From Halobacteriales archaeon YIM A00013 (GTDB lineage Archaea > Halobacteriota > Halobacteria > Halobacteriales > Haloarculaceae), in the NCBI GenBank assembly GCA_025041195.1, contig JAKCFM010000001.1, forward strand, positions 1,736,001 through 1,800,000: a DNA stretch of 64,000 bases. The letters are read 5' to 3'. Below, in pieces: positions 6,209 through 11,375 of the stretch (within the stretch, counting starts at the first letter, position 1; every line of letters begins with the position of its first letter). The position numbers and the translations under genes were made by a program. The notes under the pieces are model-generated. The model was not told the DNA's origin, ran no database searches, and saw only the letters and a program-made list of their open reading frames with translations.

Positions 6209-6613
6209 ATGGATCACGCAGTCGTCCATACCGATGCCGTCCCGCGGGTGGACATGAGTGAGACGTTCGACGGACTGTTTGACCCGGACGTTCGTCGCGT
6301 ACAGGCAGCCCTCGGAACCGAACAGCTCGTCACCAATCTCTGGTATTTCGAGGCGGATGAAACGATGGTTCATCACAGTCACGAGCAGCAAGAGGAGCTG
6401 TTCTACGTCCTCGAAGGGGAGTTTGCGGTGAAGTTCGGAGCTGTGGGTGCGACCCAAACCGAACGCGTTGGGGTCGGTGGGTTCTTTGCTGCAGGACCTG
6501 GCGTCAAACACGGTCACGCCTGTGTGAGCGATACCGGCGTGCTCCTCGCGGTTGGTGCGCCAAACGAGCCGGACATTCAGCCGGCTAGCTACACCGATTT
6601 CGAGGACGCCTGA
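6209..6613 (+). CDS. Cupin-domain protein
   Basis: 134-residue single-domain cupin, a small beta-barrel that often binds a metal. Motif 1 is HHSHEQQEELFYVLEGEF, with the His-x-His and Glu metal ligands; motif 2 is AAGPGVKHGHAC, with the fourth ligand His. The start at 6209 (MDHAVVHTD) is chosen because the upstream in-frame extension to 6092 is Cys/Gly/His-rich and unlike the family; 6164 is a second option. Enzymatic role is unknown. It is divergent from the TetR-MATE operon and may share its operator. Confidence 0.82.
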   Translation: MDHAVVHTDAVPRVDMSETFDGLFDPDVRRVQAALGTEQLVTNLWYFEADETMVHHSHEQQEELFYVLEGEFAVKFGAVGATQTERVGVGGFFAAGPGVKHGHACVSDTGVLLAVGAPNEPDIQPASYTDFEDA

Positions 6614-6678
6614 TTCGGGCACCATCACGGTTGGTGACGCCGGTACGGAGAAGTGATTCCAGCACTGCGACCCAACGA

Positions 6679-6948
6679 ATGCTGTCACAGCGCTCGTTCG
6701 AACCGACCCGCGCCAGTTTATTTGTGCTGACCGTGATGACGGGAGCTGGTATTACGTTCCTGCTTGCCCATTCTTCGGTCGGTCTGGGGGCGACCGTCTT
6801 CTACGGTGCGCTCGGGGGGCTTCTCGTATCGGCGTGGGCATCTTCCGCCAGAAATGAGCAGCCCCAGCGACTATCGACGGCCTGGTTTCTTTTTGGGAGA
6901 GTTCTCGATGGCTTCGCGCTGCTAGCAGTGGTCTGGGTGACAGTCTGA
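6679..6948 (+). CDS. Small membrane protein, unknown function
   Basis: 89 residues with two clear helices (res 13-32 and 37-53) and a third near the C-terminus (res 70-88); a polar loop with basic and Gln residues precedes the last helix. ATG 6679 is chosen so that the protein begins with a short polar segment; an in-frame start at 6631 is possible. I do not recognise a family. Confidence 0.55.
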   Translation: MLSQRSFEPTRASLFVLTVMTGAGITFLLAHSSVGLGATVFYGALGGLLVSAWASSARNEQPQRLSTAWFLFGRVLDGFALLAVVWVTV

Positions 6949-7155
6949 AGGGGGTTTCTGCCGATGTTCAATTGTATGCGTCGAGCGCGCTGCGTTCGAT
7001 CAGGTGGTGATTCACGAAGCGGTAGGAGTGTGATCAATTCACACAATCCACCAGTAGGAATGTATAATTTTCCAAAAGTAACAATGCAGAAGTTTGAATT
7101 GCCGTAGAGTAAACACCAGCATCATGTAGGTTGGGGCTGTTGCCATCATTCGCAG

Positions 7156-7455
7156 ATGGCAGACGAGAACGACGTAGTACGACAAGAAACCGCCTACAAG
7201 GATGGGATGGTCCGGTCAATCACAATGCGACCGACCGATTCAGATACCTACCCTTGTGGTTGGAAATATCGTCTGCACTTTGGCGACACTGATGGCAACA
7301 CCGTTCTACGATATGATAACTCGCACGAGCTCGAAAAAGGCCATGAATGCCACACTCCGGATGGCGTTGAAATCATCGACTTCCCCGGAATGATGACCCT
7401 TTACAACCGATTCCTCCGGGAGGTTGATCAGTGGTGGGAGCGAAATGAAGAGTGA
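7156..7455 (+). CDS. TumE-like (DUF6516) putative toxin
   Basis: 99-residue soluble protein resembling the DUF6516/TumE toxin family of haloarchaea. The core pattern GWKYRLHFGDTDGNTVLRY, then DNSHELEKGHE, then a C-terminal amphipathic FLREVDQWWE is characteristic. The gene following on the same strand is the winged-helix partner this family usually has, so the pair looks like a type II toxin-antitoxin module. The molecular activity of the toxin is not evident. It opens the accessory block that runs to 11.2 kb. Confidence 0.75.
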   Translation: MADENDVVRQETAYKDGMVRSITMRPTDSDTYPCGWKYRLHFGDTDGNTVLRYDNSHELEKGHECHTPDGVEIIDFPGMMTLYNRFLREVDQWWERNEE

Positions 7456-7531
7456 CAGACTAACGTCGATTCAATCATCTGCACGTGCATCGAACACAAA
7501 TCAACGCGGTGCAACAACAGCGGTAGCAACC

Positions 7532-7933
7532 ATGACAGACACACTGATCGTTCGAATCGGAGAGGATGATCGAACACGACAGGAGACCCGTGAATGGATC
7601 GCAGCAGCAGAACGAGGAGAAGATATCGAACCAAATCGAGTCCTCAATATCGAGCGTGAGGAAGATGTTGCACGCATTCTCAGTGCGGTAAATCTCGAAC
7701 TGCTCCGAACGATCGCAAGAAAGGAACCGGCAAGCATCCGCGAGACGGCTGAACTCGTCGACCGCGACGTTACGGACGTTCACGGTAATCTAACGAAGCT
7801 CGAAACACTCGGTCTGATCGAGTTCGAACAGGATGGCCGAGCGAAGCGCCCAGTTGTCCCCTACGACGATATTCAGCTTGATATTGATCTCTCCGGCGAT
7901 AATGACGGAAATCACAGGCATGCAGTTGCGTGA
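7532..7933 (+). CDS. HVO_A0114-type winged-helix DNA-binding protein (putative antitoxin)
   Basis: 133 residues. A C-terminal winged HTH (NLELLRTIARKEPASIRE, TELVDRDVTDVHGNLTKLE, LGLIEFEQDG) follows an N-terminal segment MTDTLIVRIGEDDRTRQET typical of the HVO_A0114 family. Likely represses its own operon and neutralises the TumE-like protein upstream. The start at 7532 gives the conserved N-terminus. ATG 7445, overlapping the toxin stop, would give a longer protein and cannot be excluded. Confidence 0.78.
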   Translation: MTDTLIVRIGEDDRTRQETREWIAAAERGEDIEPNRVLNIEREEDVARILSAVNLELLRTIARKEPASIRETAELVDRDVTDVHGNLTKLETLGLIEFEQDGRAKRPVVPYDDIQLDIDLSGDNDGNHRHAVA

Positions 7934-8071
7934 TTACTGGTTCCACACGCTACCAGTACTTCTCAAATTAATCACTCTCCCTCCTGACCCGCTCCATCCG
8001 ATGCTGATCCGGATGCTACGGAGAGGAAATTATTACTACAGATCTGCTGGGGAATCACGATAGGGTTTGAT

Positions 8072-8458
8072 TTATTCATTCCCCGCCAGTGGTATACGAC
8101 TCGCAAGCCTATCCTCAATGTCTTGCTCAGTGATCGTTCCAGGATGATATTTCGCAGGGAGTATCCTATTGGGTATTATAAATAGTAATGATATGGATAA
8201 GAAGGCGCATAAAGCTATCAATCCATCCTCAAAGAGGATGCGTATTATAATAAAGTGGAATAGGATACCAACAAAGACCGTCGCCCCTAGTGTAAATGGT
8301 CCAAGACCACCGGATCGGCGTTCAAACCCATCACTTGATTGTAAAGTAAGAAAAGGAGCCACATCTAGCAATACAGGATGTAAAATGAAAATATAAAATA
8401 ATATCGAAGCCACAACAACGATTCCTAATTGTATATATGTGCTTGGTTTTTCTTCCAT
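8072..8458 (-). CDS. Small membrane protein, paralogue B (candidate immunity protein)
   Basis: 128 residues with three to four helices: res 10-27, 55-75 and a long hydrophobic stretch 78-100. It is a clear paralogue of the product of 8687-9076: shared are P-x-LLDVAP, QSxDGFxRRxGGLG and the C-terminal QDIEDxLASRIPLAGxE. It starts two bases after the stop codon of the orphan tip gene, so it is the last gene of a compact minus-strand operon. The coding DNA is strikingly A+T-rich (19 G/C in the 60 bases 8161-8220). I know no characterised homologue. An immunity role is inferred from the gene order only. Confidence 0.8.
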   Translation of the reverse strand: MEEKPSTYIQLGIVVVASILFYIFILHPVLLDVAPFLTLQSSDGFERRSGGLGPFTLGATVFVGILFHFIIIRILFEDGLIALCAFLSISLLFIIPNRILPAKYHPGTITEQDIEDRLASRIPLAGNE

Positions 8459-8459
8459 T

Positions 8460-8690
8460 TTAGTTCACCCACGAATTGGTTTGCGGTTTTGTGAATTTAT
8501 TCAATGATTTGTTACTACTGGTTTCGTTATCTAATGGCGATATCTGAATTGTTCGACAGAAACCCTCAGATTTCCATTTTTCATCTACGTTATCTTGACT
8601 TTGCCAATTGCAATAGTTGATCGCAACAACATATGCATTACCACCTGTGACGGTCAGACCACCCCAAATGTGATCAATTCTGTCGCTCAC
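8460..8690 (-). CDS. Orphan copy of the C-terminal tip of the 690-residue exported protein
   Basis: 76 residues with no signal peptide. The core TGGNAYVVAINYCNWQ, then VDEKWKSE, C-R-TIQISPLD matches the end of the upstream large protein (TGGEAYTIANNYCNWQ, VDKSWKAE, C-Q-TIQMSPLD), including both Cys. The first 12 residues and the Asn/Ser/Lys-rich last 20 are unlike it. The GTG start overlaps the stop of the preceding gene by four bases and the next gene starts two bases after its stop, so it is probably translated. A displaced tip module without the secretion and carrier domains is what polymorphic toxin loci call an orphan cassette. Confidence 0.72.
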   Translation of the reverse strand: MSDRIDHIWGGLTVTGGNAYVVAINYCNWQSQDNVDEKWKSEGFCRTIQISPLDNETSSNKSLNKFTKPQTNSWVN

Positions 8691-9076
8691 TCACTCCCCG
8701 CCAGGGGGATACGACTCGCAAGCCAGTCCTCAATGTCTTGCTGGCCAATAGTACCAGGATAATATTTTTCTGGAAGCATTTTGTTTGGTATGATAATCAA
8801 TAATATTAATAACATGAACGCAGTGAAAGATAGTAAGCCATCTTCTATGATTGAAATAATCGCGATATAATAGATATAAACACCAATCACGAGTGTGGCG
8901 AGATACGATAAGAGTCCTAGACCTCCCGTTCGCCGATCAAATCCGTCGCCCGACTGGAAGGCGAGAATTGGGGCAACGTCCAATAGTATTGGATTTACTA
9001 TATATATGAATATGACAGTCATCACTACGAAGATCGCTATCCGTTCGACGTATTCCTTGAATGTTGTAGTAGTCAT
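8687..9076 (-). CDS. Small membrane protein, paralogue A (candidate immunity protein)
   Basis: 129 residues with hydrophobic helices at res 12-33, 57-76 and 82-98, a conserved central polar loop QSGDGFDRRTGGLG and a soluble C-terminal tail ending in ASRIPLAGSE. It begins 20 bases after the stop of the large exported protein and overlaps the next gene by four bases. Its product and the product of 8072-8458 are paralogues over their whole length. A membrane-embedded partner encoded directly after an exported protein with a variable tip suggests immunity or tip binding. No biochemical family is recognised. Confidence 0.8.
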   Translation of the reverse strand: MTTTTFKEYVERIAIFVVMTVIFIYIVNPILLDVAPILAFQSGDGFDRRTGGLGLLSYLATLVIGVYIYYIAIISIIEDGLLSFTAFMLLILLIIIPNKMLPEKYYPGTIGQQDIEDWLASRIPLAGSE

Positions 9077-9096
9077 TTTGAATCAGTAATTATCAT

Positions 9097-11169
9097 TTAA
9101 CTATGTGCGATTTTTGAATTACTTTCATCTAGAGGAGACATTTGAATAGTTTGACAAAGGCTTTCAGCCTTCCAACTCTTATCAACGCTTGACTGGCGCT
9201 GCCAATTGCAGTAATTATTCGCGATAGTATAAGCCTCGCCACCAGTGACACCTACATCTACCACAAATTTCCTGCTATTTTTAGCCCTAAACATTCTCTT
9301 AATATATTTTGGTTTAATATCCATATCCACTGCCCACTTCACATTTTCAAGATCATTGCCTTTTTTGGCATAGTATTTGATGTCATCAACTGGCACGTCA
9401 TCCGTAGCGAGCTCGCCCGCAAGACCCAGATCAGCGTTCTTCCGATTGAGCAACAGCACATCGTCCGACGTTGCTCCCTCTTTCGCAAGTGGCATTGCCG
9501 TTTCGGGATCGATCCCTTTCTGTGTGAGTGTCAGGACTGCATCGCCACTGAAGCCCTCCTTTACGAGTGGCTTTGCCTCCTTGAGATCGATGCCAGCATC
9601 GATGAGCGCCTGTTGTTGCTTCCCTGAGACTCCATGTTTGACCATGCTATTCACGAACTGTTCCTCATATCCTCTGTTCACGATGTCTGTGTACTGGTCG
9701 TTTGTGATCTTGGCGGTGTTAGGTGGACGCTTCGAAAGGATCTCTGCATTTTTCTTTAGGGTCCCTTTCATCGAGTATTCGATGATCTCACTCATCGACT
9801 CACCACGATTTAACAATACAGTCGCACCGCCATCGCTGACCAAATCCAGCCCAACCCGTATTTGCACCCTTGAGGCGCTGTTCGCGAGGAAAGTGGCCAT
9901 CGTCTTGACCACAACTGGTGAGCGTCCAAAATTCTTAATCCAACTGGCGGTAACCGAGGCGACTTTTGGCGCATCCCCAAGTCCAAACGCACCGAGACTA
10001 CCTGCAATTCCGATTGCATCGAGTGTCGCCTCCCCAAACTCACCCACATCCAACTCTGTTATAGCACTGTAACTGTTCTGAATAAAATCGCGGGTATCAG
10101 CGACTACGCCAACGTACGGCGTTGACGCAAGTCCCAGCATTCCAAGGAGATAAAACGGCGACTCAGACTGGGTGACTTCCGCCAAACCCTTTGGCATCCC
10201 CATCTCACCCAACACACTTCCCAGGGCGAAGGATCTGGCCTGCTCAGGATTCTCGTGCGCCCAGACGCCGATCCCCACTCCCGGAATTCCTCCCAGGATC
10301 ATAGCTTTGAGCGCGGGATGTTTTTCCAGGAAATCGATTACCGCACCAATGTCATTGTTGAATTTTTGAATGTATTCGTTTGCCTTTTCTAAAGGTGATT
10401 TGACCACCTCCGAAACTTCATTGGTGACCTGCTGAACGTCATCCTCCTCGTTACCGTCGAGATCGATCGCTCCATCGTCGGTGAAGAGCCGATCTTTGGC
10501 ATCGTCATCGAGACACGTCAGTCCGCAGTCTCTTTTTTGTTCGTCGCCCGAATCCCCGCCAGACGATCCCTGTGCGGATTGATCGGAATCCTGTACCGGA
10601 GGTACTGATTCGGACGAGTCCGATCCATCGGAATCAGGTGCCCGTGCACCCGAAACATCAGAATCAGCGTTGACCGTGAGATCGGTCTGAAGCTTCTCTA
10701 CGTTCGTATTGGTCGTATCGATTGAAAATCCTACACCAACGGACTGTCCTGGATCGAGCTTGACAGCGTTTCGTTTCTTCTCAAGCGGGGTGGATCCATT
10801 GTAAAATCTGATGTTCGGTTCGGTATCCTGTAGCCAGACAGAGACTGGACTGGTCCCCTGATTGGTAATCGTGAAAACGTTGTCCAGCTGCATTTGACCG
10901 TTTGCGTTCACACCCGCTCCCAGCTGAGAGCCGCCGTCACCGACGCTATCGAGCGAAAGCTCCAGTTCTCCGGCTTTCGTATAAGAAACATACTCGCCGT
11001 TGTCCCCACTCGCAGGGTGCAGCCCGAGATAGCCCCCCGCATCGTCGGCCACCTGTACGTTGGCGTTCCGTTGGGCAGTGAACGAGTCGAACGCCCCAGT
11101 GACGTAGATTGCACTCGTCACCAACCCAACGGCAATCAGAACGATCGCAAGACGACGGACCCTCCTCAT
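9097..11169 (-). CDS. Exported multidomain protein with DUF1102-like N-terminus and variable C-terminal tip (candidate polymorphic toxin)
   Basis: 690 residues. Res 1-28: basic start plus one hydrophobic helix (signal or anchor). Res 30-165: DUF1102-like beta domain (VQVADDAGGYLGL, LDNVFTITNQGTSPVSVWL). Res 170-215: Ser/Asp/Gly linker. Res 215-220: CGLTC. Res 285-420: hydrophobic Gly-rich region (TPYVGVVADTRDFIQ, GEATLDAIGIAGSLGAFGLG) resembling the pre-toxin region of bacterial polymorphic toxins. Res 505-625: helical repeats of about 26 residues (LIDAGIDLKEAKPLVKEG, LTQKGIDPETAMPLAKEG). Res 636-690: short tip with two Cys. The DNA encoding the tip is poorer in G+C (23/60 at 9121-9180) than the body (33/60 at 9541-9600). 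It is the first gene of a four-gene operon. The toxin role is inferred. Confidence 0.7.
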   Translation of the reverse strand: MRRVRRLAIVLIAVGLVTSAIYVTGAFDSFTAQRNANVQVADDAGGYLGLHPASGDNGEYVSYTKAGELELSLDSVGDGGSQLGAGVNANGQMQLDNVFTITNQGTSPVSVWLQDTEPNIRFYNGSTPLEKKRNAVKLDPGQSVGVGFSIDTTNTNVEKLQTDLTVNADSDVSGARAPDSDGSDSSESVPPVQDSDQSAQGSSGGDSGDEQKRDCGLTCLDDDAKDRLFTDDGAIDLDGNEEDDVQQVTNEVSEVVKSPLEKANEYIQKFNNDIGAVIDFLEKHPALKAMILGGIPGVGIGVWAHENPEQARSFALGSVLGEMGMPKGLAEVTQSESPFYLLGMLGLASTPYVGVVADTRDFIQNSYSAITELDVGEFGEATLDAIGIAGSLGAFGLGDAPKVASVTASWIKNFGRSPVVVKTMATFLANSASRVQIRVGLDLVSDGGATVLLNRGESMSEIIEYSMKGTLKKNAEILSKRPPNTAKITNDQYTDIVNRGYEEQFVNSMVKHGVSGKQQQALIDAGIDLKEAKPLVKEGFSGDAVLTLTQKGIDPETAMPLAKEGATSDDVLLLNRKNADLGLAGELATDDVPVDDIKYYAKKGNDLENVKWAVDMDIKPKYIKRMFRAKNSRKFVVDVGVTGGEAYTIANNYCNWQRQSSVDKSWKAESLCQTIQMSPLDESNSKIAHS

Positions 11170-11190
11170 GGAATCTTTATCTACGAATTT

Positions 11191-11200
11191 GACTATAAAT
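11191..11200 (-). promoter_or_regulatory. TATA box of the candidate toxin operon
   Basis: On the minus strand ATTTATAGTC is centred about 27 bases before the ATG at 11169, the spacing expected for a leaderless haloarchaeal transcript. It is the only promoter-like element seen before the four-gene block 11169-8072, whose internal gaps are 20 bases or less. Confidence 0.55.
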
Positions 11201-11375
11201 CTGCATTATGATAAATGCCTCGTTGTAGTGACTAATCCATGAGTCCGTATGGTTTGGGGAACTATATGGATGTGGAACTTTTAATACTCTCTCTACATCG
11301 AAGAAGATGGACCTACCAATCAACAAACCGAGTCAATCGTCGCACTCACACCAAAAACAACGCCGATCCTCCCAC

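Follow-up and report, generated by a model that had tools for sequence, protein, structure and literature searches.

Do haloarchaea carry polymorphic toxins on a carrier type of their own? The question is raised by a small operon in a 64,000-nucleotide window, taken from the main contig (positions 1,736,001-1,800,000) of Halobacteriales archaeon YIM A00013. This archaeon belongs to the genus Halocatena, and Halocatena marina DFN5 is the nearest to it among named relatives. A preliminary description had read the operon as an archaeal equivalent of bacterial polymorphic toxins, with an exported carrier ending in a short C-terminal tip, a membrane protein conferring immunity, an orphan copy of the tip and a second membrane protein. 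Our analysis leads, with a probability of roughly 83%, to a polymorphic toxin system whose carrier has a Taf/TasA-like pilin domain and whose tip is predicted to be toxic and to be delivered on contact. At the level of sequence, comparison with related genomes shows a carrier family, exchange of tip and immunity genes, pairing of tips with membrane proteins, selection and the absence of the surrounding island from the sister species.

The four open reading frames (ORFs), all on the minus strand, were recovered at the positions originally proposed (Table 1), and their tight arrangement was confirmed: from the carrier onward, neighboring genes lie 20 bp apart, overlap by 4 bases and lie 1 bp apart. 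The suspected duplications also held: the carrier tip and the orphan tip share 61% identity over 46 residues (E = 4e-14), and the 129- and 128-residue membrane proteins are paralogues (55%). For the tip, the orphan tip and both membrane genes, compared among themselves or with H. marina, the proportion of synonymous differences (pS) was saturated at 0.76-0.89 and that of nonsynonymous differences (pN) low at 0.20-0.27, indicating purifying selection for the proteins that these short frames encode. An AlphaFold model of the carrier (mean predicted local distance difference test score (pLDDT) 67) contains every part that had been described, from the export helix through linker, hydrophobic helical region and helical repeats to the short tip; its solenoid is confident and its helical tip of low confidence. 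PADLOC returned nothing and a phage search gave no match.

A search with the carrier body covered 392 genomes of the order. Extended matches were confined to six Halocatena genomes, including the sister species (G039), and to another family (G194 and G208, truncated in G222); a single-query scan of genome contigs found H. marina alone. Listing every match to the N-terminal domain (N-domain) in these nine genomes and reading the loci gave, besides the carrier of the window, 26 further carriers sharing all or most of residues 1-170. Of the 27, 18 have short tips and eight have nuclease-type tips, whereas one is cut short (L079); seven belong to the genome of the window. In every carrier, GC content declines from the N-domain to the tip, in that of the window from 54.7 through 51.0 to 41.1%. 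The N-domain alone matched in 274 of the 392 genomes, mostly, in the loci read, in ordinary pilin- or adhesin-like proteins, which were not counted as carriers. Separately, a protein of about 180 residues without a Pfam match (MTLPLFLFRDEDRNCVNLSTVDSR...) recurs beside several carriers (L025, 10532-11080; L022, 6586-7134; L023, 9626-10165; L027, 6650-7282; and L062).

As the preliminary description had envisaged, carriers with the same N-terminal part, other tips and other downstream genes were found. The clearest pair consists of L023 in the genome of the window and the syntenic L062 in the sister species. Their DNA is ~94% identical up to codon ~405, has nothing in common through the tip and downstream genes, and then aligns again; the proteins are near-identical to about residue 395 (motif LVADGG) and unrelated beyond. 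L023 moreover retains a broken gene homologous to the gene downstream of the L062 tip (E = 4e-31). By this alignment, the pair is a cassette swap of tip and downstream genes on a conserved body. Less drastic divergence was seen in other close pairs, where identity over the last 50 residues fell below that of the body (64 versus 98% in L077/L078, 38 versus 79% in L073/L075 and 66 versus 87% in L024/L061), so that tips as conserved as the body, which the preliminary description had set against its reading, were not observed in these pairs. The L023/L062 swap starts right after a conserved LVxDGG, and similar motifs occur near the border of pre-tip region and tip in L063 and L026.

Four groups of nuclease-type tips were distinguished (L023/L069, L062/L072, L063 and L026/L066). 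The first three show a distant relationship. Every group keeps its own family of soluble downstream genes in two genomes (all E ≤ 1e-13). Homologues of the L063 partner are present in L069 and G160, and extra non-cognate copies of downstream families were found at L069 and L067. A profile of nuclease-type tips had the toxin CdiA (7m5f) as its best match in the Protein Data Bank (E = 0.0021), and the L026/L066 tip resembles a PD-(D/E)xK nuclease by eye. In G160 (family f16, L121), a BECR-like tip related to that of L063 is directly followed by the homologous downstream gene. The pre-tip region is shared as well, but the rest of the carrier is an unrelated large, repeat-rich surface protein. The pre-tip region occurs again on plasmid pHmuk01 of Halomicrobium mukohataei, behind a DTDGDG-repeat N-terminus (L110, 5623-9834) and upstream of three paralogous genes (WP_012807523, WP_012807521 and WP_012807520), a separate locus that appears polymorphic-toxin-like. 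Tip, immunity and pre-tip modules thus move from carrier to carrier.

Short tips are paired with a different partner. A member of the small membrane protein family lies 3' of the tip in 18 of 18 short-tip carriers and in none of the eight nuclease-tip carriers. The family profile was seeded with 13 sequences from 12 of these loci, and all six short-tip loci outside the seeds scored as well. Six loci have a co-directional membrane gene of the type found in the window (115-141 residues, two or three predicted transmembrane (TM) segments); in 16 of the 18, the membrane gene is at most about 170 bp from the tip, compared with 0.9-1.5 kb in L022 and L027. The impression that many short-tip loci have no immunity gene was dispelled by a scan of the opposite strand, which revealed convergent membrane genes. 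Across the order, the family is present in nine of 392 genomes, eight of them with carriers, so the membrane protein is neither absent nor unlinked, the other outcome that the preliminary description had set against its reading. Tip and membrane-protein similarities covary, with a Spearman coefficient of 0.38 and a Mantel p of 0.0003 (p = 0.003 when controlling for the body; for a reduced set of 11, p = 0.04-0.05), and tip and N-domain similarities do not (r = 0.04). Membrane-protein copies without a full carrier occur at L100-L107, one array of three adjoining a 72-residue carrier remnant, and the L077 locus has an orphan tip in addition to that of the window. Together, pairing, covariation and orphan copies are what immunity genes look like. 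A small integral membrane protein as partner points to the cytoplasmic membrane of the target as the probable site of action of the short tip, a destination that we slightly favor. A very improbable alternative is that short tips are not toxins and that the membrane protein serves their export, folding or anchoring, leaving the nuclease-tip carriers as the only toxins. In its favor, the family always adjoins short tips, and the orphan tip has no signal peptide; yet the membrane genes form multicopy arrays, persist without carriers and are mostly convergent to the carrier, and nuclease-tip carriers with the same N-domain manage without them. An immunity function for the membrane proteins is the preferred reading.

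The carrier had been described as exported and DUF1102-like. Export helix and DUF1102 match (Pfam, E = 9e-5 over residues 1-170) both stand, and the domain can be specified further. A seven-sequence profile found one convincing solved relative, the Tafi pilus of Natrinema sp. J7-2 (9p0a, E = 1.5e-11), so that a pilin domain homologous to a Taf/TasA-like pilin lies behind the signal helix. NCBIfam TafE and TafF matched with E~1e-6 (28.8 bits against a cut-off of 155 and 27.1 against 420, respectively), scores so far below the family cut-offs that the carrier is not TafE or TafF itself. Foldseek gave weak matches to 7ueg, 7pnb, 9p0a and FimA, none below E = 0.001. A Taf/TasA-like pilin domain describes the N-terminus more precisely than the label DUF1102-like alone. 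TafE-like pilin genes immediately precede the carrier at L029, L064 and L077, and SipW-like signal peptidase genes near L027/L029 and L064, which suggests that carriers may join a donor-strand pilus; for display of the carrier on a pilus, we would offer a little less than even odds. These same observations could suit a variable adhesin or kin-recognition system, in which tips bind their membrane-protein counterpart, whether in the same cell or in a neighboring one, without killing: the N-domain is of pilin type, Taf-like pilin genes adjoin some carriers, tip and membrane protein covary and the short tips have no toxin homology. We consider this unlikely, since other carriers that share this N-domain and pre-tip region bear nuclease-type tips paired with soluble partners, an arrangement at odds with adhesion, and since carrier-less orphan partner genes are typical of immunity.

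For the favored toxin system, the following mechanism is proposed. The carrier would be exported, its Taf/TasA-like pilin domain would keep it at the cell surface, perhaps by joining a donor-strand pilus, and the linker, pre-tip region and helical solenoid would present the short tip to neighboring cells. The tip would be the toxin, probably acting at the cytoplasmic membrane of the target, and the 129-residue protein the cognate immunity protein that protects the maker. The orphan tip and the second membrane protein may form an older or spare tip/immunity cassette. As a broader and tentative idea, haloarchaeal donor-strand (Taf/TasA-like) pili could be delivery sticks for exchangeable tips, either nucleases or a new class of membrane-targeting peptides of ~45 residues, each with its own immunity protein.

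Across the family, we found an exported N-terminal part, tip exchange, a tip-specific immunity-like gene and orphan tip/immunity cassettes, as in polymorphic toxins. The initial reading as their archaeal equivalent gains from the tip swap, the tip-specific neighbor genes and the orphan cassettes. In the pair formed by the window and H. marina, tip and body are about equally conserved and the tip is hardly more variable, so that the case for the window's own tip rests on the family. Further points count against a toxin. The window's tip matched no known toxin in Pfam, NCBIfam or PADLOC. Pfam matches of the nuclease-type tips to BECR-type families were weak and below cut-offs (PBECR1, 0.001 for L063; EndoU, 0.004 for L069; PBECR2, 3.5e-4 for L067), and an AlphaFold model of one such tip reached a pLDDT of 48, with no significant match in a fold search. 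Convergent membrane genes, which account for 12 of the 18 short-tip loci (about 80-94 residues, two TM segments), stand outside the carrier operon. No pilus genes were found beside the window's own locus. Several carriers are broken by frameshifts: L022 and L027 among the seven of the same genome, and L066; an intact relative of L027 is found in the sister species as L029.

The locus shares with bacterial polymorphic toxins (Zhang et al. 2012, PMC3482391) a secreted multidomain carrier, an exchangeable tip, an adjacent immunity gene and orphan cassettes, and differs from them in its Taf/TasA-like pilin domain. Polymorphic toxins have been described as rare in archaea, with delivery of the PVC type named for haloarchaea (PMC3482391), and have been predicted in some haloarchaea (PMC3482391, PMC8416519). 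Contact-dependent growth inhibition (CdiA/CdiI) likewise places a toxin on a long surface stick and swaps tip/immunity modules, and sibling tips weakly resemble CdiA 7m5f; unlike CdiA, the carrier has no two-partner-secretion or filamentous haemagglutinin domain by Pfam. Haloarchaeal toxin-immunity pairs acting in contact-dependent antagonism have been shown for the contractile/type VI secretion system (T6SS) toxins of Halogeometricum borinquense (PMC11566945). The pairing is similar here, but our carrier has its own export signal and pilin domain. No Pfam match to a DUF4157-type peptidase or a spike/PAAR adaptor was found in the carrier, and a contractile system elsewhere in the genome was not searched for. 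With Taf/TasA-like pilins (9p0a; the bundling pilus of P. calidifontis, 7ueg; the thread of S. acidocaldarius, 7pnb), the carrier family shares a related N-terminal domain and, at some loci, adjoining SipW-like signal peptidase and TafE-like genes; unlike them, the carrier has 500 extra residues comprising pre-tip region, solenoid and tip. VARTIG of the Thermococcales is another archaeal module with a hypervariable C-terminus and subfamily-specific membrane proteins downstream (PMC8416519). It resembles our locus in these respects but consists of Ig-domain proteins, is restricted to Thermococcales and has no toxin domain. The preliminary description knew of no such system in haloarchaea. Polymorphic toxins as such had been predicted there, but no pilin-domain carrier was found in the literature searched, which left out a survey of polymorphic toxins in archaea (mBio, 2019).

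In bacteria, systems of toxin exchange are well documented; in archaea, they are mostly predicted. Here, one genus that includes cultured species offers a clear natural case of tip swapping, four tip/immunity families of the nuclease type and a candidate new class of short tips with membrane-protein immunity, making contact-dependent antagonism through a surface filament directly testable in haloarchaea. The family hints, too, at what DUF1102-type pilin domains with long C-terminal fusions may do.

Table 1 Features of the operon, its carrier and the surrounding island (positions in the window)
Feature	Position	Strand	Basis
Carrier, 690 residues	9097-11169	-	ORF call
Carrier: signal/transmembrane helix, residues 1-26, conserved YxTGAF motif	11092-11169	-	Invariant alignment columns; AlphaFold model
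Carrier: pilin-type beta-sandwich domain, DUF1102/Taf-like, residues 36-169	10663-11064	-	Pfam, NCBIfam, profile and Foldseek matches
Carrier: disordered acidic/Ser linker (Ser/Asp/Glu-rich), residues 177-244	10438-10641	-	pLDDT below 50
Carrier: conserved helical, Gly/hydrophobic pre-tip region, residues 245-445	9835-10437	-	Model; recurs on other haloarchaeal N-termini
Carrier: solenoid of 13-residue single-helix repeats, residues 459-631	9277-9795	-	AlphaFold pLDDT ~90
Carrier: short C-terminal tip, two Cys, residues 636-690	9100-9264	-	AT-rich, 41% GC versus 55% in N-domain
Putative immunity protein 1, 129 residues, three predicted TM segments	8687-9076	-	Membrane-protein family member
Orphan tip, 76 residues, GTG start, no carrier body or signal helix	8460-8690	-	Similarity to carrier tip
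Putative immunity protein 2, 128 residues, paralogue of immunity protein 1	8072-8458	-	Similarity
Island holding the locus, 4.7 kb	6609-11343	.	Absent at same site in G039 and G044

The operon lies on a genomic island, in place of which the sister species has 134 bp between flanks of about 93% identity; the island is also missing from this site in G044. No convincing repeats were found at its ends. The island additionally holds a toxin-antitoxin-like TumE/HVO_A0114 pair at 7156-7933 (Pfam TumE, 1.9e-11; HVO_A0114, 5e-31), and DNA resembling this pair occurs at other sites in G043 and, in part, in G044.
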